DNA of 64,000 nt, taken from NCBI RefSeq assembly GCF_000317065.1, contig NC_019701.1, forward strand, positions 3,296,001 through 3,360,000. Direction: 5' to 3'. Origin of the DNA: Pseudanabaena sp. PCC 7367 (GTDB lineage: Bacteria; Cyanobacteriota; Cyanobacteriia; Pseudanabaenales; Pseudanabaenaceae). The first letter of the stretch is position 1, and every line of letters begins with the position of its first letter. The notes beneath the pieces are model-generated. The model had not been told where the DNA came from. It worked only from the letters and a program-made list of their open reading frames with translations, and did not search any database. This document shows, one piece after another, positions 56,336 to 64,000 of this stretch. A program made the position numbers and the translations under genes.

Positions 56336-57064
56336 ATGCAAACACAAAACTTGTCGAACAACCCTGGATCTTTATCCCATGACTTCCCACATCTGATCAT
56401 TCATGCCGAAGACGGCGATCAGTTGTTTCCGCTTTCCAATGCCGACTTTTGGACGATTGGTCGCGGTTTCAATAATTCGATCGTGCTCAATGATAAGTGG
56501 TCGTCGCGCAACCATGCCACCTTGCAGATTGTGCGTCCACCTAATTATGAAGCTCCCGATTCTTTTGGCTCTTCCCTTGGATCAGGTGATGGTAGTAAAA
56601 GCAATGAAACAACTGAGCAAAAACCATCAATGGTCGGTAACTTTTATTTAGTTGACCTGGGTAGTCGCAATGGCTCTTTCTTAAGAGGGCAAAGGGTGAC
56701 CTTCCCAATCTTGCTAAAAAATGGCGATCGCTTGACGATTGGCAAAACGGACATGGACTTTTTCTCGCCGTATAAGCCAGAAACCAAGAAAGGCAATGTA
56801 CCGGAAGGAATGCACCTGTTCCAGCAGCCAACCGCACCAGTATCCCGATCGACCCTGACTCCTTCGGAAGAACGAGTATTTTGGCAAGTGGTGCAGGGCT
56901 TTACTAATAAGGAAATTGGCAAACGGTTGCAAATCAGTCCACGGACTGTGCAAACCCACCTGAGCAGTATTATGACCAAGTTGAACTTGGAAAATCGCTC
57001 TCAGATTGTTCGATTTGCCTTTGAGCATAGCCATCGCCCACCCAACTCTAGCGATACCTATTAA
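56336..57064 (+). CDS. FHA-domain LuxR-type transcriptional regulator
   Basis: This 242-aa protein joins an N-terminal FHA phosphothreonine-binding domain (about 25-140; WTIGRGFNNSIVLND, SSRNHATLQI, LVDLGSRNGSFLRGQRV) to a C-terminal LuxR/FixJ helix-turn-helix (about 172-235; LTPSEERVFWQVVQGFTNKE, RTVQTHLSSIMTKL). The FHA core is interrupted by a Ser/Gly-rich insertion (about 78-100). The design suggests control by a Ser/Thr kinase instead of a histidine kinase, since no receiver is present. Divergent from the Wzc-type gene, so control of exopolysaccharide is possible but unproven. Confidence 0.92.
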   Translation: MQTQNLSNNPGSLSHDFPHLIIHAEDGDQLFPLSNADFWTIGRGFNNSIVLNDKWSSRNHATLQIVRPPNYEAPDSFGSSLGSGDGSKSNETTEQKPSMVGNFYLVDLGSRNGSFLRGQRVTFPILLKNGDRLTIGKTDMDFFSPYKPETKKGNVPEGMHLFQQPTAPVSRSTLTPSEERVFWQVVQGFTNKEIGKRLQISPRTVQTHLSSIMTKLNLENRSQIVRFAFEHSHRPPNSSDTY

Positions 57065-57700: not shown

Positions 57701-58222
57701 ATGAGATTCGTGAAAAACTTACTAAAAGTTTCATTGGGTACGATCGCTGCTAGTGCAGTGACATTAGCGATCGCAGCTCCTAGCCATGCGCAACCTGCCT
57801 ATGGTAGTTATGTGGGGATTGGTGCTAGCTTCGGCCTCACCGATGGCAATGTTGATGCCGGTGAAGAGAGTACGATCGGTGGTTTGATCGCCGCCCGTTA
57901 TAAATTCCTGGAGATCCCTATTTCCGTGCGCGGCCAAGTGCTAATTGGTGAAAGCACTGCCTTTGTGCCCACTGTTTCCTATGATATTCCGGTCAACTTC
58001 AACACTGATATTTACGTGGGTGCTGGGGTGGCACTGGCCAATACCCGCGAAGTTACACCGGTGGGTAATGAAAATAGCTTTGTGATTCAACCTGGGATCG
58101 ACTACACCGTACCCAATAGCAATTTAGTTGTGTTTGGGAATGCGATCTTTGCGTTTGATGCTTTCCGCAATAGCGATCGAACCGCCACCGCCTTACAAAC
58201 TGGGCTTGGTTTTCGCTTTTAG
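57701..58222 (+). CDS. Small outer-membrane beta-barrel protein
   Basis: This 173-aa protein has a clear signal peptide (LGTIAASAVTLAIAAPSHA, cleavage after SHAQ region) and then alternating hydrophobic beta strands (YGSYVGIGASFG, GGLIAARYKF, TDIYVGAGVALA, NLVVFGNAIFAF) ending GLGFRF with a terminal Phe, the usual outer-membrane insertion signal. An eight-stranded OmpA/OmpW-like barrel fits the length. A GTAGGGA motif precedes the ATG, and a strong terminator follows. Function beyond an envelope protein cannot be read. Confidence 0.87.
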   Translation: MRFVKNLLKVSLGTIAASAVTLAIAAPSHAQPAYGSYVGIGASFGLTDGNVDAGEESTIGGLIAARYKFLEIPISVRGQVLIGESTAFVPTVSYDIPVNFNTDIYVGAGVALANTREVTPVGNENSFVIQPGIDYTVPNSNLVVFGNAIFAFDAFRNSDRTATALQTGLGFRF

Positions 58223-58435: not shown

Positions 58436-58942
58436 TCACAGGCTGTTTAGAGCTGTTCGCTTGACCATTTCGCCCAGAACCGATTTAGGTATCGCTCCAT
58501 AGACAGTCTTGAGCGCCTGGTTTTGCCGATCGAGAAAAGTAAGTTGCGGCACTGCGGTGGCATGGAAGCTTCGGGCGATCAATGCATCAGCAGGTTCATC
58601 CACGTTCAACATCACAAAATTAACCTGATTGCCATACTTGTGGTGCAGGGCTTGCATGGTGGGCGCGAGCGATTGGCAGGTGGTACACCAATTGGCATAA
58701 AACTCCACGATGCTAGGTTTATTATTAGCGATCGCATTTTGGTAAGTGACACTCTGGCGCGACATTTGTTTTAGGGTTGCCAGCCCAGAAATAGAAGAAC
58801 CATTAAAAATGCTGGCATTAGTGCCGGAGGTGAAAAAGATCACTAGACTAAACAGAACCGCGATCGCTACTACACCGATCGCCGTGAAATTTGGCTTTGC
58901 TTCCTTTGCTTCCATTGTGTCGCTTTCTTGATCTGGGGTCAT
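58436..58942 (-). CDS. Membrane-anchored thioredoxin-like protein (TxlA/HCF164 type)
   Basis: This 168-aa protein has an N-terminal transmembrane anchor (about 21-40, AIGVVAIAVLFSLVIFF) and a thioredoxin domain with redox motif WCTTC (Cys86, Cys89), VNFVMLNVDEP and the cis-proline region TAVPQLTFLD. HCF164/TxlA proteins work on the lumenal or periplasmic side, receive reductant from CcdA and help reduce apocytochrome thiols for cytochrome c and b6f assembly. Its position downstream of multiheme cytochrome c genes suits that role, although 244 bp separates it from the cytochrome b gene. Confidence 0.88.
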   Translation of the reverse strand: MTPDQESDTMEAKEAKPNFTAIGVVAIAVLFSLVIFFTSGTNASIFNGSSISGLATLKQMSRQSVTYQNAIANNKPSIVEFYANWCTTCQSLAPTMQALHHKYGNQVNFVMLNVDEPADALIARSFHATAVPQLTFLDRQNQALKTVYGAIPKSVLGEMVKRTALNSL

Positions 58943-59186
58943 TCTCTCTGGTTAGGCTTTACTAAATTAAGGCGCTAAGTTAAGTCCAAATTGTCAAATT
59001 TAGGTACTTGCACTCAATTATATCTATTCTCAATTCTTGCCAAAGACAATACAGCAAATTTCTGCCTGGAATATGATGGAGCCACTTGGAGTTAAGGCTT
59101 CCAGCAATAGCTCTACCGATCATTTCCATATGCGAACCATACGATGCGACTGCTTGAGTGGAATTAGGCGGCGATCGCTACTGATA

Positions 59187-59807
59187 CTACTGATAATAGT
59201 AGGCAATGAAGATATGAAAGCCCAACATCACAAAAAAGATCGCCACTAGAATGATATGGGTGGGTAGCCAAAAATCGCGCATCTTGGCGATCAACTTGCC
59301 CTTAGAAATCCCAAATCCCCTCTTTTTCCCTTCCTTCTCTGGATTCTTGGCAGGGGGTGTTCCATAATAGCGGCGCGACGATTCCAGGACCCCGGTTTCA
59401 GCAACCACACCCACCAAAGCAGAAAGGGTGACCGCAAAAAACACCCACAGAAAGATCGCATTGAAATTCAAACCATTCGCACCGATCGTGTGAATTAAAG
59501 TTGCCGCGACCAAACCCACACCAATAAATATATGCAAACTGCGCCAGAAAATAATCGAGCCAGGAATAGTAATCTTCATTAACCAACCCCGTCCTCGCTT
59601 TCGCACCGTCAGTACCATCTCAAATAGCACAAAGGCGAGCGAGACATAACCCGTGACCTGCTTATAAATCTCACCTTGAAAAACCTGATAGAGATTAAAA
59701 GACTGCTCCCGCAACGTGGGTAAATAGTTGCCACTGATCGCAAATGGCAGCAGCAGCAACGCAGTAATAAAAGTAAGAATAATCAGGGTGGAAAATTTTG
59801 GTTTCAT
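59187..59807 (-). CDS. Di-heme-type membrane cytochrome b
   Basis: This 206-aa protein has about five transmembrane helices. Two helices carry histidine pairs with equal spacing: His92 and His106 (LHIFIGVGLVAATLIHT), and His184 and His198 (HIILVAIFFVMLGFHIF). This arrangement binds two stacked b hemes across the membrane (His92-His184, His106-His198), as in cytochrome b561/ferric-reductase-like proteins. A basic loop (PPAKNPEKEGKKRGFG) lies between the pairs. It probably moves electrons from quinol across the membrane. It is the next gene after the multiheme operon on the same strand, beyond a terminator. Confidence 0.83.
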   Translation of the reverse strand: MKPKFSTLIILTFITALLLLPFAISGNYLPTLREQSFNLYQVFQGEIYKQVTGYVSLAFVLFEMVLTVRKRGRGWLMKITIPGSIIFWRSLHIFIGVGLVAATLIHTIGANGLNFNAIFLWVFFAVTLSALVGVVAETGVLESSRRYYGTPPAKNPEKEGKKRGFGISKGKLIAKMRDFWLPTHIILVAIFFVMLGFHIFIAYYYQ

Positions 59808-59952
59808 ATCGGGCGATCGCCTAGATCGGCTGTCAACTAGTCAGAGCGAAGGTTAGGAATCCACTTTCCTAAACAAAGAAATTAATCCAGGTTATAGTTC
59901 ATCTTATTGCCGGGAAATTCATTTGGTAGTTAACTAGGCACAATTTCTCTAT

Positions 59953-59972
59953 ATCTATCAACATCTATCAAC
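59953..59972. repeat. 10-bp tandem duplication
   Basis: ATCTATCAAC occurs twice in tandem upstream of the cytochrome b gene on its 5' side. Confidence 0.8.
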
Positions 59973-60012
59973 ATGGAATATAAAAATATCCAGCAGCAGA
60001 AAATATAGATAA

Positions 60013-60057
60013 CCAAATAGACAAAGGGATGCGCCATTATTCACGAACGCACCCCTT
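60013..60057 (-). terminator. Terminator closing the globin-multiheme operon
   Basis: AAGGGATGCG (60024-60033) and CGCACCCCTT (60048-60057) form a 10-bp stem with one G-T pair and a 14-nt loop. On the minus strand it is followed by TTTGTCTATTT. It starts 16 bp after the stop of the Tll0287-like gene. Confidence 0.7.
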
Positions 60058-60073
60058 CCAACTAGATGAGCAA

Positions 60074-60745
60074 TTATGAACTACCCAAAGGCAGGTTGAT
60101 CATAACCCCACCCATTACATCACCCAGGACAAATACCTTATCGGGATATCTTTCCTTGTGGACTGGATGTTCGTTGTGGCAAGTGACACAGGCTTCGGCC
60201 ACGGCAACATCAGGATAGAGGGCTGAATAGTATCTTTGGCCAGCAATCTCCTGAAAGTCTTTGTATGGTTCGCTAGTCTCTTCCACCTGCTTCATGGCAG
60301 TCTTCTCAAACTCGTTTCTAGGAGCCTGATTATCGTTAATGTTCCAACTTGAGATCAAGCCATAGGTAAAGGTGTCAGCTTCTAGGGCGATCTCTGAGCC
60401 CAAACGGAACATCTGCGCCGGCAAGGGAACTCCGCCGGTCTCTTTCCAGGCTTCGGTTGCTTCTGCATCAACTACACCATCGGGTTTCTCTTTCCCTTCT
60501 AGTTTGGTCAGCCTTGAGATCACATGCTTGGTATAGGCGGTGCGATCGGCTTCCAGGACAGTATGAATATAGTCGGTGACCAATTCAGGGGAAATGCCAA
60601 CCTCTGCTGTAGCGGTAGGCGCAGGGCCACTACTACAGGCCGATATAGTAATTAGGGCAACAGAAATTAGCGCAACTAAGCCGAAGGTTTTAGTTCTGAG
60701 CCAGTTTGTCCAGTTTTTAGGACGATTTCTACGATTTCTATTCAT
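60074..60745 (-). CDS. Tll0287-like (DUF3365) monoheme c-type lipoprotein
   Basis: This 223-aa protein has a basic N-terminus, a hydrophobic segment and a lipobox ISAC ending at Cys37, so it is predicted to be a membrane-anchored lipoprotein facing the periplasm. The body is the helical Tll0287-like/DUF3365 fold, and the C-terminal part has one heme site, CVTCH (Cys186-His190), followed by NEHPVHKERYPDKVFVLGDVMGG. Such domains are seen in redox sensors and small electron carriers. It is the last gene of the multiheme operon, 57 bp after the hexaheme stop. Confidence 0.87.
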   Translation of the reverse strand: MNRNRRNRPKNWTNWLRTKTFGLVALISVALITISACSSGPAPTATAEVGISPELVTDYIHTVLEADRTAYTKHVISRLTKLEGKEKPDGVVDAEATEAWKETGGVPLPAQMFRLGSEIALEADTFTYGLISSWNINDNQAPRNEFEKTAMKQVEETSEPYKDFQEIAGQRYYSALYPDVAVAEACVTCHNEHPVHKERYPDKVFVLGDVMGGVMINLPLGSS

Positions 60746-60802
60746 AGTTAGTTTCTCTCTACCTACCTTTGTGTTGTGTGTGTTGTTGATGGAAGTTCGG
60801 AT

Positions 60803-61648
60803 CTACTCGCTAGGCGAGCCAGATCTGCGCTCCTCTAGCTCTCTCACCAGCTCAAAGGTTTCCATCTCCAGGGTGGGCGATCGATTAAAATTCGCTTCCA
60901 CCATCTCATCGTCGAATATACTTTTATAGGCATATTCCATGCCGTGGCAATTCATACAGACTTCCGAAACCATGCGATCGCGCGGCAAAAGGGTAAAGGT
61001 GTTGTTGTGGTTAACATGCACCCAATCCCCGTTTTCTGGTATCTGCCGGGGTAAATGACAGGTGGCACAGGTCACCGATTCACGATCGGGGCGGGGGATA
61101 TTTCCCTTTGCCCTGAAAATCTCGGCATGTCTAGACTGCTCATAGTTAAGGGAATGGTTATCGTTATGGCAGGTGAGGCATGAATCCGCCGCTGCCACAG
61201 TTGTGTTAGCCGAATGAACATCATGGCAGGTATTACAAGTCATTTGCTTGTCCATTGCCGCTTCCTTCATCGGAATCTGAGCCATCGCTGGAGTTAGCGG
61301 TGTCATACCTTCGTTAAGCCGAATGCCATGTTTACCCAACAGGAAAGTAGCTACGGCTTGCTCGTGGCAAGTGCGACAGCTTTCATGATCTGGCTTGCTA
61401 ATCAGCGCCTCGGTCTCTTGATCCAGATGGCAACTAGAGCAATTGATATTGGCGATCGCATGGGCACTACCCTGCCACTGCTCGGTAATTTGGGCTAAAT
61501 CTTCCTGACTGGGAGATGTACCATTTTGGGCAAAGGCAGAATAACCTTGATAACCAGGATGGCTATAGCTATAAAAGAAAAATACCGCTAGCGCCACCAG
61601 GGCGATCGTGACTAGCTTTTTGAGGTCTAATTTGAGCGCAAATTTCAT
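60803..61648 (-). CDS. Membrane-anchored hexaheme cytochrome c
   Basis: This 281-aa protein has an uncleaved or signal-type N-terminal helix (about 11-27) and six CXXCH heme sites: Cys70, Cys91, Cys138, Cys157, Cys194 and Cys231 (first cysteines). The motifs read CSSCH, CRTCH, CNTCH, CLTCH, CATCH and CMNCH. Additional histidines between sites could be distal ligands. No CXXCK site is present, so it is not a standard NrfA. Its start has AGGAGG nine bases upstream, embedded in the end of the pentaheme gene two bases away, which indicates translational coupling. Likely a periplasmic electron conduit or reductase; the substrate is unknown. Confidence 0.9.
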   Translation of the reverse strand: MKFALKLDLKKLVTIALVALAVFFFYSYSHPGYQGYSAFAQNGTSPSQEDLAQITEQWQGSAHAIANINCSSCHLDQETEALISKPDHESCRTCHEQAVATFLLGKHGIRLNEGMTPLTPAMAQIPMKEAAMDKQMTCNTCHDVHSANTTVAAADSCLTCHNDNHSLNYEQSRHAEIFRAKGNIPRPDRESVTCATCHLPRQIPENGDWVHVNHNNTFTLLPRDRMVSEVCMNCHGMEYAYKSIFDDEMVEANFNRSPTLEMETFELVRELEERRSGSPSE

Positions 61649-61650
61649 TG

Positions 61651-62292
61651 CTAGCCACCTCCTAGAAATTCCTGACCTAGATCAGCGGCAGGAGCGCGAT
61701 CGAGCTGTGGTTTCACCGTCCGATCGGGATAGGTCGGCACCGGCAACATATCCGGTTGATCTAGATTCTGGCGAATGAATCCGGTCGAGATCGATCGATG
61801 ATCATGGAAGTTGTGACAACCAGCGGTCCAACAGCCGTCAGGTGAGAAGCCCTCATGGCTGGCCAGATCGCCGTTAATTACACCTTCATGACAATGCATA
61901 CATAGATCCGGATGCAAATGCACACCGCGACTAAATATATGCACATGCTCGTTATGACAGGCCGTACAGGTGAGTACCTCGATCTCTTCCATCAACTCGG
62001 CCCAACGCGGATCGCGGAACTTCTTAGTACCATGTTCATCCTCTGCCATTTCCGCCTCATGGCAGCGCAGGCAGGTTTCATTCGTGATCGGCTTAAACCC
62101 TTCATGACAGGAGCTACAGGAGGCTTCGATCACCATGTGTCCATGGGAGGTTTCACCGGGCAAAAAAACGCTGCGCTGATCCAGGGCAAATGCAGCAGCT
62201 AACCAGGTTGTCAAAACAACCAGCAACACCATCACAATTATGTTGGCTCGGAATAACCTACCTAGCCTGAATCTCCCTGGGGAATTACTCAT
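61651..62292 (-). CDS. Membrane-anchored pentaheme cytochrome c with a CX4CH site
   Basis: This 213-aa protein has an N-terminal transmembrane helix (about 17-37, IIVMVLLVVLTTWLAAAFA) and five heme sites: CSSCH (Cys59), CLRCH (Cys74), CTACH (Cys109), CMHCH (Cys131) and CWTAGCH (Cys154), the last being a CX4CH variant known from cytochrome c3-type proteins. The anchor suggests a NapC/NrfH-like quinol-facing role, but the sequence is closer to small c3/c7-like heme proteins. The tail is Pro-rich and ends in three Gly. It lies between the globin gene (28 bp) and the hexaheme gene (2 bp). Confidence 0.9.
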   Translation of the reverse strand: MSNSPGRFRLGRLFRANIIVMVLLVVLTTWLAAAFALDQRSVFLPGETSHGHMVIEASCSSCHEGFKPITNETCLRCHEAEMAEDEHGTKKFRDPRWAELMEEIEVLTCTACHNEHVHIFSRGVHLHPDLCMHCHEGVINGDLASHEGFSPDGCWTAGCHNFHDHRSISTGFIRQNLDQPDMLPVPTYPDRTVKPQLDRAPAADLGQEFLGGG

Positions 62293-62320
62293 TTGTTCCT
62301 AGGTCAATTGTGCCTTTACC

Positions 62321-62764
62321 CTAGCCTGCTGCACCTTCTAAGTTGAGCACCTCCGGCGGGTAATCAGCCCCATCCAGCATAATTGCTGTAATGGCACCGT
62401 ATGCGGCAACCCAGGCTTCCTTGACCTCAGGAGTCCAATCAGCTTTTAAGTATTGCTCTAGGGTAGCCAGTAACGCATTCCCAACTAGTGGATAGTGGGC
62501 AGGTAGCGCCCCATATTTGACATGTCTGGCACCTAAACCTTTTAACTCGCTAGTGAGCACTTCTGGATTAGTGAGGTTATCGATCGTCATCACCAATGAA
62601 CCCACCAGCATTTGCTTTTGTTTACCCATTGCGGTGTGGGCAAACAGTGGCTTAGCCTCGGGATACATCGTGAATAGGTTCTCGTAAAAGCGATCGCCTA
62701 ATTCACCCGCATAGGGCTTGACCTTGTTGAAACTTTCTTGCAAGATCTCAACTGGTAGTGACAT
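62321..62764 (-). CDS. Single-domain globin (flavohemoglobin-like)
   Basis: This 147-aa globin resembles Vitreoscilla hemoglobin and the globin half of flavohemoglobins. Key residues are Tyr27 in FYENLF (B10), Gln49 (E7) and proximal His81 in ARHVKYG (F8), then PAHYPLVGNALLATL and WTPEVKEAWVAAYG. The Tyr-B10/Gln-E7 pocket is typical of O2-binding, NO-dioxygenating bacterial globins. There is no reductase domain, so an external electron donor is needed; the cytochromes in the same operon are candidates. It is the first gene after an NtcA-type promoter. Confidence 0.93.
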   Translation of the reverse strand: MSLPVEILQESFNKVKPYAGELGDRFYENLFTMYPEAKPLFAHTAMGKQKQMLVGSLVMTIDNLTNPEVLTSELKGLGARHVKYGALPAHYPLVGNALLATLEQYLKADWTPEVKEAWVAAYGAITAIMLDGADYPPEVLNLEGAAG

Positions 62765-63417
62765 CTAAAGTTACTCCATATCTCTTTATTTTGCACCGTC
62801 ACTCACATAAATCACAGAACTGAAAGTTATTTGCGGCGACCAACCAGCATAACAATCCGTTCAGTTGATGATTTGTTTGGCGGTGCTTTACTGCCTATTT
62901 ATAGTTTTTTAAACCGTTGTAATTAGTAAATTTAGTTACAATTACTAATTTAGTGATGCGGGTTCTTCATGCTTGGAATGCATAAGATGCAAATATTGAT
63001 TTTAGTTAGCGTGGCGAGCCTCAAATACTTTGGACAAAAGACGATCGCCTGTGGATTGAGCAACTAAGCAACTAAATGAGATGTTAAAGTTATGTCTATA
63101 AATAAACCATCGGTGCTATGGGAGTAAGGATATTTAGTAAGCATATTTAGTAAAGAATCCTTGGTTTAGTTTTTAATCTCTTGGCCGAATACGATTGCAG
63201 ACCCAATAATTACTAACAAGCCAAACAAGCCACTGGCTTGAGCATGTGAATTGGTTAGGGGTTCCCTAAGGACCTGATCTGAACTTAATTTTTGGCATAA
63301 GACTTAATTTTTGGCATAAGTATGATTCGGCAGCAAAACAACCTCCGAGGAAATAAAGGGAATAAGAGGTGGTATGTTGCTTCAGCTAATTGGCTTACTA
63401 CGCGCCGCTACTACTTA
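62765..63417. other. 653-bp spacer with the globin-operon promoter
   Basis: The left part carries the NtcA-type promoter of the globin operon (62898-62939). The right part has a tandem-like duplication of GACTTAATTTTTGGCATAA-type sequence (about 63283-63320). An 82-codon plus-strand frame near 63322 overlaps the pentapeptide gene antisense and is not accepted. Confidence 0.5.
62898..62939 (-). promoter_or_regulatory. NtcA-type activated promoter of the globin-multiheme operon
   Basis: On the minus strand GTAACTAAATTTAC (62939-62926) matches the NtcA box GTAN8TAC exactly. After 22 nt comes TATAAA (62903-62898) as -10. This spacing is that of class II NtcA-activated promoters, where the box replaces the -35 element. 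Transcription should start near 62890, giving a leader of about 125 nt before the globin ATG at 62764. Confidence 0.65.
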
Positions 63418-64000
63418 CTACTTAGGTACATTCAACGCCCCATTTCCCCGCAGCCAGTGTTTTTGTTCATCGCTCAAGCCCTCCGCAAAAGTAAACTCTG
63501 CCCCCATCACATCGCAATCGGCAAAATCCACTGCTTCCCAGCTACTATGCTCCAGGTTGGCATCACGTAAACTGGCCTCAGCTAAATTAACCTGCTTGAA
63601 CTGAGTCCCCTCTAGATTAGTACCGAACAATGCAGCCCCGGTTAAATTAGTCTGGCAGATTAAGGCTTTGCCCAGCTTGGCTTCGTGTAGTTGTGCCCCT
63701 TGCAGATTTGCCTCAGTCAGGTTGGCTTCTTGCAGGTTGGCGGCAATCAACTCAGCATCAGTAAATTGAGCCTTACTCAAGTTAGCCTTTTCCATGCTTG
63801 CTTGCTCTAGGTTTGCACCCTCAAAATTTGCGCCTTCGCAATTTGCTGCCTTCAAGCTAGCTAATCTCAGTCTGGCCTTACTAAAGTCTGCGTTAGTGAA
63901 CAAGCCATCATCTAGTTTAGCTTTGATTAATTTGGCTTGCCTAAGATCAGTGGCGATCGCTTTGGCTTCCCGCAAGTCCGCTTCTTCAAGGTTGGCGGCG
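63418..64000 (-). CDS. Pentapeptide-repeat protein (5' end beyond window)
   Basis: The frame remains open to the right edge, so the true start lies outside. The visible 194 residues are a run of A(N/D)Lxx pentapeptides (ANLEEADLREAK, ANLSKAQFTDAELIAANL, ANLQGAQLHEAKL), which fold into a square right-handed beta-helix. It ends in a non-repeat tail EQKHWLRGNGALNVPK. Such proteins are abundant in cyanobacteria and usually have no assigned function. Confidence 0.88.
   Translation of the reverse strand, partial: AANLEEADLREAKAIATDLRQAKLIKAKLDDGLFTNADFSKARLRLASLKAANCEGANFEGANLEQASMEKANLSKAQFTDAELIAANLQEANLTEANLQGAQLHEAKLGKALICQTNLTGAALFGTNLEGTQFKQVNLAEASLRDANLEHSSWEAVDFADCDVMGAEFTFAEGLSDEQKHWLRGNGALNVPK

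Follow-up and report, generated by a model that had tools for sequence, protein, structure and literature searches.

A conserved globin–multiheme cytochrome cassette of cyanobacteria as a possible nitrogen-controlled membrane redox chain

What is a globin gene doing beside two multiheme cytochrome genes in a cyanobacterium? Although cyanobacteria are believed to make do with few c-type cytochromes, a linked multiheme–globin system is carried by 36 of the 390 cyanobacterial genomes that we sampled, mostly together with heme-attachment genes of its own. The example discussed here lies in a stretch of 64,000 nucleotides from Pseudanabaena sp. PCC 7367 (“the window”), for which an initial annotation had proposed a redox system that disposes of NO, nitrite, hydroxylamine, or O2, or that exports electrons. 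Our best answer, with a rough probability of a little under two in five, is a nitrogen-controlled membrane chain that would feed electrons to globin hemes at the cytoplasmic face, where NO (or O2) is consumed. In broader terms, the cassette probably removes NO or O2.

All six minus-strand genes are indeed present at 58436–62764. The globin, pentaheme, hexaheme, and Tll0287-like lipoprotein genes are packed together and end at a hairpin, and a cytochrome b and a membrane thioredoxin follow; from globin to thioredoxin, the intergenic gaps are 28, 2, 57, 266, and 244 nt. The hairpin 3′ of the lipoprotein gene (60023–60058, minus strand; z = -2.75) is real, and may be a terminator or attenuator. 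The tally first given for the six genes, 12 c-type sites, two b hemes, and one globin heme, is upheld by the conservation of motifs and histidines.

This gene order is kept in 46 other distinct cyanobacterial cassettes, and the cluster is therefore not a product of chance. The initial annotation had staked its proposal on synteny of the globin with the two multihemes, and the synteny holds: in 40/40 cassettes whose contig reaches far enough the globin adjoins the multihemes, which never occur there without it. The pentaheme and hexaheme genes overlap by 4 nt in 25/26 cassettes. Most cassettes additionally have ResB, CcsA, and pentapeptide-repeat genes, and a Rieske lipoprotein gene is frequent (18 cassettes). 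In the window genome, the recurrent pentapeptide-repeat neighbor (63418–64000, minus strand; 308 aa in all) runs past the window end, and genes for a Rieske lipoprotein, CcsA, and ResB lie beyond it on the same strand. The Rieske and cytochrome c synthase genes had been missed earlier. Taken as sequence evidence, this makes a conserved, linked membrane redox system a well supported description of the cassette. The open-access literature that we searched contains no description of a system of this kind, nor of tandem or transmembrane globins, or hexahemes, in cyanobacteria; a search for the hexaheme on plasmids found no match. Several carriers are named isolates, including Leptolyngbya sp. PCC 7375, Hyella patelloides LEGE 07179, and Coleofasciculus sp. 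LEGE 07092, so the system is testable.

The window globin (62321–62764, minus strand) matches PF00042 (E=1.2e-19), with Phe26, Tyr27 (B10), Phe41 (CD1), Gln49 (E7), and His81 (F8), and has all of the marks of an F-type globin (a globin domain with HisF8 and PheCD1; 3/3). TyrB10, GlnE7, PheCD1, and HisF8 are retained in 78/78 globin domains, and together they form the pocket of bacterial NO dioxygenases (PMC3820574); conservation thus supports an NO-dioxygenase-type pocket in the cassette globins. The best profile is NO-inducible flavohemoprotein, and the best matches are flavohemoglobins and single-domain F-type globins. The protein is not itself a flavohemoglobin, as the C-terminal FAD/NAD(P)H reductase domain is absent and the globin scores 81 bits against a cut-off of 432. 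Globin-coupled sensors were rejected because no C-terminal signaling output domain is present, the tail being a transmembrane helix only, or nothing. The globin is also not a truncated hemoglobin (PF01152), of which the window genome has none, and unrelated Pfam matches of the five-domain globin are repeat artefacts.

Relatives of this globin are mostly tandem “polyglobins” of two, three, or five domains (29/40 complete globins), and most of the 40 (33) close in one C-terminal transmembrane helix. The tail-anchored polyglobin does not appear in the initial annotation; a membrane-anchored form in bacteria would stand as a natural parallel to the polymeric hemoglobins of invertebrates. The window globin is the exception, a short, soluble, single-domain protein of 147 aa that has no transmembrane tail, so the tether is absent in this genome unless a tail-anchored paralog at C2:1673351 serves.

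Expansion to as many as five domains suits storage or buffering better than catalysis, and the tail anchor places the globin at the membrane. Both would fit a membrane polyglobin that buffers or delivers O2, with the chain as a side branch of respiration or photosynthesis that oxidizes quinol and keeps local O2 low, a role proposed for the cyanoglobin of Nostoc commune. We consider this possible but doubtful, given that O2 bound in a TyrB10/GlnE7 pocket is usually held too firmly to be delivered and that the cassette is without an oxidase gene.

Regulation bears on the choice. An NtcA-type promoter, not noticed earlier, precedes the window globin: the site is exact (GTAACTAAATTTAC, 62926–62939, minus strand) and the -10 box TATAAAT, 22 nt downstream (62897–62903, minus strand), is one base off TAN3T. 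Among 40 globin upstream regions, GTAN8TAC occurs in 26 against a background of 13.9% (p about 2e-13, kinship ignored), and a -10 box at N20–24 from it in 18 against 2.4%, with the distance peaking at 22 nt. Only the N8 spacing is enriched (other spacings, 0–4/40), the site is found in 19/23 sequence groups, and FNR/NnrR-type sites (TTGA-N6-TCAA) lie upstream of two loci only. From this pairing of a GTAN8TAC site with a -10 box some 22 nt further downstream, the cassette is apparently switched on by NtcA, that is, by nitrogen control; if so, an undescribed connection would couple membrane electron flow to nitrogen status. Such control fits nitrogen stress generally and not NO specifically, which weakens the NO-consuming reading. 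It would also fit an O2-sensitive nitrogen process, and so the handling of O2, but protection of nitrogenase is not the general role: nifD is present in 16/36 cassette genomes versus 114/354 others (Fisher p=0.14) and absent from the window genome.

The pentaheme cytochrome (61651–62292, minus strand; N-terminal membrane anchor) has four CxxCH motifs and one C-X4-CH (C154..H160), invariant in 27 sequences, and the exported hexaheme (60803–61648, minus strand) has six CxxCH, all invariant. Conserved candidate distal histidines outside the motifs number six for the six hemes of the latter and six for the five of the former, assigned by count and not by structure. Because each heme has a candidate histidine partner, the two proteins look like electron wires rather than nitrite or hydroxylamine reductases. 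Least probable of all the readings that we weighed is that they reduce nitrite, NO, or hydroxylamine directly, in the manner of NrfA or the octaheme enzymes, with the globin mopping up leaked NO. Short stretches of the hexaheme profile do match NrfA, octaheme nitrite reductase, and HAO-like chains, but the matches cover no catalytic domain, no CxxCK occurs in the multihemes, and by count no heme is left open for catalysis; assignment to the NrfA/ONR/HAO reductases was rejected on that count.

The hexaheme also shows a weak but consistent profile similarity, far below cut-offs, to the DmsE and GSU2203 decaheme families (26/26 members). We rejected an MtrCAB/DmsE conduit, with six hemes in place of ten, 48.5 bits against a cut-off of 192, and no conserved beta-barrel around the cassettes. 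Nor is any porin or outer-membrane partner conserved beside them, which argues against export of electrons to the outside. AlphaFold models were poor (mean pLDDT 46.7 for the hexaheme and 45.8 for the pentaheme), with confidence in the N-terminal helices only. The redox system first proposed survives as a conserved, linked set whose globin has an NO-dioxygenase-type pocket, and loses electron export and the idea that the multihemes reduce nitrite or hydroxylamine.

The mono-heme lipoprotein (60074–60745, minus strand) belongs to the Tll0287-like (sCache_heme) family PF11845 (E=1e-17; 65 bits against a cut-off of 24.1). Its CxxCH is invariant, and the only invariant cysteines are 37 (the lipobox), 186, and 189; it is therefore not a canonical Cys/His-ligated Tll0287, lacking the axial Cys. 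Proteins of this family fused to signaling modules bind NO tightly, whereas a redox function is argued for members that stand alone (PMC12889525). The first property and the missing Cys ligand favor a scheme in which lipoprotein and globin sense NO or O2 and tune the electron-transfer module; the second, and a cassette with no signaling output domain, make it improbable.

The membrane cytochrome b (59187–59807, minus strand), weakly DUF4405/cytochrome b561-like, has four invariant histidines (92, 106, 184, and 198) that form two pairs, each with a spacing of 14 residues, and fit two b hemes; its PDB match to a designed PPR protein (5iww) is spurious. The last gene (58436–58942, minus strand) encodes a membrane-anchored thioredoxin that is CcsX/ResA-like by context. 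It had been read as an HCF164-type aid to cytochrome c maturation. The WCxxC membrane thioredoxin stands, not as a bare HCF164 but as a partner of the linked ResB and CcsA in System II (ResB, CcsA, and thiol oxidoreductase), whose PF05140 and PF01578 matches are above cut-off just past the window end; the TIGR03144 match at cassette-linked System II genes, at 163 bits, is below its cut-off of 187.6.

The diheme cytochrome b, the Rieske lipoprotein, and the 11 bis-His hemes could instead be the core of a quinol:acceptor (or donor:quinone) oxidoreductase akin to Alternative Complex III or the bc-type enzymes, with the globin in an accessory role as sensor, protectant, or heme reservoir. The hexaheme profile weakly matches a multiheme subunit of Alternative Complex III and the menaquinone reductase QrcA, and the globin family also occurs without multihemes, fused to pentapeptide repeats. 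We think this rather unlikely, since the conserved gene set shows no ActB/ActC/NrfD-like or Qo-site subunit and, in testable cassettes, the multihemes always come with the globin. Alternative Complex III proper was rejected, its ActB Fe-S/molybdopterin-like and ActC/ActF NrfD-like subunits being absent among the genes conserved around the 46 cassettes.

In the nitrogen-controlled, NO-consuming chain that we prefer, NtcA would turn on the cassette under nitrogen limitation. The anchored pentaheme, the exported hexaheme, and the Tll0287-like and Rieske lipoproteins would form a relay in the lumen or periplasm, and the cytochrome b would move electrons across the membrane, in exchange with the relay, the quinone pool, or both. 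The globin array, usually tail-anchored at the cytoplasmic face, would take up electrons that keep its hemes ferrous, and these hemes would eliminate NO by dioxygenation (NO + O2 -> nitrate); maturation of the c hemes, the unusual C-X4-CH site among them, would fall to ResB/CcsA and the thioredoxin. Support comes from the gene set with its order and adjacency, the heme sites and bis-His counts, the polyglobin and its tail, the pocket, the NtcA signature, and the linked ResB, CcsA, Rieske, and thioredoxin genes; topology, electron direction, the cytochrome b–globin contact, and NO as the substrate are what we infer. A bolder version, which we hold only tentatively, is a new kind of membrane electron-transfer complex, in which a polyglobin tail-anchored at the cytoplasmic face would connect through the cytochrome b with the 11 relay hemes of the opposite face, the whole serving as a nitrogen-regulated respiratory branch that consumes NO (or O2). 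It is important to remember what weakens the chain: reduction of the globin by the multihemes or cytochrome b is again something that we infer, and globins can draw on soluble reductases (PMC3820574). The host genome has no NO synthase, which removes that enzyme as its NO source, and NO dioxygenation needs one electron per turnover, for which 12 c hemes across a membrane seem excessive.

Comparison with known systems places the cassette among several relatives. With MtrCAB it has in common the faint decaheme likeness, but not the ten hemes, porin, or outer-membrane cytochrome. NrfHA, octaheme nitrite reductase, and HAO are likewise multihemes, and the linked System II synthase has a parallel in NrfI of Wolinella (PMC12285233); the cassette differs in lacking a catalytic heme or CxxCK, and the matches are short and local. 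Alternative Complex III and the bc-type oxidoreductases resemble it in a membrane-anchored pentaheme, b-heme or Rieske components, and a p-side heme relay, whereas the cassette is without ActB/C/D/F, shows no Qo-site subunit, and has a globin and a Tll0287 lipoprotein. GlbN and the SyNOS globin-NOS of Synechococcus PCC 7335 offer a precedent, in that globins of cyanobacteria have been proposed to convert NO to nitrate (PMC6104048), though the window genome has no NOS and the cassette globin is not of the truncated type. Finally, flavohemoglobins and F-type globins (Hmp, VHb, and Hell's Gate globin I) have the same fold and TyrB10/GlnE7/HisF8 pocket; in place of a fused FAD/NAD reductase, the cassette globins have tandem domains, a C-terminal transmembrane anchor, and multihemes and a cytochrome b as partner genes.

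All six genes that the initial annotation named or implied are present on the minus strand, and family searches concur, with weak matches to multiheme families: a globin (62321-62764; PF00042), a five-heme protein (61651-62292), a six-heme protein (60803-61648), a Tll0287-like lipoprotein (60074-60745; PF11845), a cytochrome b (59187-59807), and a thioredoxin (58436-58942; thioredoxin family). The hairpin it claimed 3' of the Tll0287 gene is real, and its heme counts are correct: four CxxCH motifs plus one C-X4-CH (GCWTAGCHN) in the five-heme protein, invariant across 27 sequences, and six CxxCH, all invariant, in the six-heme protein. Cassette and window do not differ in G+C. Downstream of the thioredoxin gene, the plus strand encodes a small outer-membrane beta-barrel-like protein (57701-58222), not conserved with the cassette. 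Another plus-strand gene (56336-57064) combines an FHA domain with a LuxR-type DNA-binding domain, an uncommon regulator architecture.

Scanning a collection with one genome per species identified hexaheme homologues (53-69% identical) at 25 loci, in cyanobacterial records only (Symploca, Moorena, Coleofasciculus, Leptolyngbya, Adonisia, Acaryochloris, Hyella, Spirulina, Halomicronema, and MAGs), with identical gene order on a single strand at every locus. By profile search it is present in 36 of 390 class members, matches being strong or absent with no intermediate relatives. Among the genomes listed, none of the same family other than the host has the cassette, so either the host lineage gained it or the lineages around it widely lost it. 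After pooling and duplicate removal, 46 cassettes remained besides that of the window. The globin–multiheme synteny proposed for checking holds: in all 40 cassettes whose contig extends far enough, the globin gene is immediately upstream of that for the pentaheme. The two multiheme genes overlap by 4 nt in 25/26 cases. Pairwise divergences are correlated (Spearman 0.37-0.76 among non-globin genes, 0.32-0.53 against the globin), as would be expected from co-inheritance; shared species descent would give the same.

The putative NtcA promoter upstream of the globin, on the minus strand, has an NtcA-type site, GTAACTAAATTTAC (62939-62926), followed after 22 nt by a -10 box, TATAAAT (62903-62897). 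NtcA-activated promoters, according to PMC3898017, carry GTAN8TAC centred near -41.5. This motif occurs in 26/40 globin upstream regions versus 13.9% of 374 others from the same loci, and together with a -10 box in 18/40 versus 2.4%; the same half-sites at other spacings occur in 0-4/40. Site-to-box distances peak sharply at 22 nt, and at several of the other loci near-matches are arranged alike. When cassettes are grouped at 80% hexaheme identity, 13/23 groups carry the full signature and 19/23 the site, and the result is therefore not owed to a handful of closely related sequences. Nitrogenase protection as a general role was rejected (nifD in 16/36 cassette genomes versus 114/354 others, p=0.14; the host lacks nifD).

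In both multihemes, conserved non-motif histidines are at least as numerous as hemes, and therefore each heme can be bis-His; this rests on the count, structure models being too poor for pair assignment. The count argues for electron transfer over catalysis, and direct nitrite reduction, one route to the nitrite disposal suggested initially, is unlikely. In cytochrome b, His 92/106 and His 184/198, each pair 14 apart, fit a stacked pair of b hemes spanning the membrane. Canonical Tll0287 is ligated by an additional Cys, which the cassette lipoprotein does not have; a recent study of the family found NO binding in signalling versions and redox-like behaviour in stand-alone ones (PMC12889525). 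Elsewhere in this genome (C2:3190410), a 530-aa protein joins a Tll0287-type heme-Cache domain to an apparent SpoIIE-type phosphatase and is likely a heme-based sensor.

In relatives the globin gene encodes a tandem polyglobin: among 40 complete genes, window included, 22 encode two domains, six three, one five, and 11 one. Phe26, TyrB10, PheCD1, GlnE7, and HisF8 are kept in 78/78 domains. In 33 of the 40 proteins a single very hydrophobic C-terminal helix, with almost nothing beyond it and no signal peptide, predicts a tail anchor, with the globin domains facing the cytoplasm; the window globin is one of seven short forms without the helix. A second globin of this genome (L064:2822-3496, at C2:1673351; 60% identical) has one domain followed by a C-terminal TM tail, absent from the window globin, and no NtcA site was found upstream of it. 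In other cassettes, divergent second globins near the thioredoxin gene (L008:7066-7608, L023:10573-11103, L079:5331-5861) share a conserved C-terminal tail, GELTFYEWLDLYGESSP, without a TM helix.

Similarity between domains of one polyglobin often reaches 90-98% (L005, L007, L018); the array therefore undergoes repeated expansion. Such expansion suggests capacity, which makes O2 buffering by the array the main rival explanation; next comes a quinol oxidoreductase to which the globin is an accessory. The most economical reading is NO consumption: a lumenal or periplasmic heme relay, a transmembrane diheme cytochrome b, and cytoplasmic NOD-type globins would form one chain, under nitrogen control, that keeps the globin hemes reduced to consume NO.

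Recurrent neighbours of the 46 cassettes, often transcribed divergently from the globin, are ResB (29), CcsA (27), a Rieske lipoprotein (18), and a pentapeptide-repeat protein (28); a ChaN-type heme-binding protein occurs in 13. In the window genome these four genes run from 63418 onward on the cassette strand, mostly past the window end (L063), and a separate ResB encoded elsewhere presumably has the housekeeping role. Wolinella has special CcsA-type synthases for unusual heme motifs (PMC12285233); by analogy, the cassette-linked synthase may serve the C-X4-CH site. Its CcsA (L063:3739-5502), like the other cassette CcsA proteins inspected, has an N-terminal extension of ~300 aa (motif LDGRKKPLDTVARE). 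At L010:2985-3563, the first third of a globin continues in frame into a Rieske lipoprotein and resembles the remains of a second globin gene. Related globins elsewhere in cyanobacteria are single-domain or join one or two globins with a TM segment and with pentapeptide repeats (468-672 aa at L065, L066, L067, L070, and L078, recurrently adjoined by a small conserved protein of ~105 aa); the fusions echo the pentapeptide gene adjoining the cassette.

We found no description of the system in the open-access literature searched. Tandem globins in prokaryotes are mentioned in passing in a 2015 paper (PMC4503718), and for this reason we do not claim a first bacterial polyglobin. All parts of the system fall into known fold families. 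By membership tests the system is not a flavohemoglobin, ACIII, MtrCAB, Nrf/HAO, or a globin-coupled sensor; the novelty lies in the system and not in its parts.
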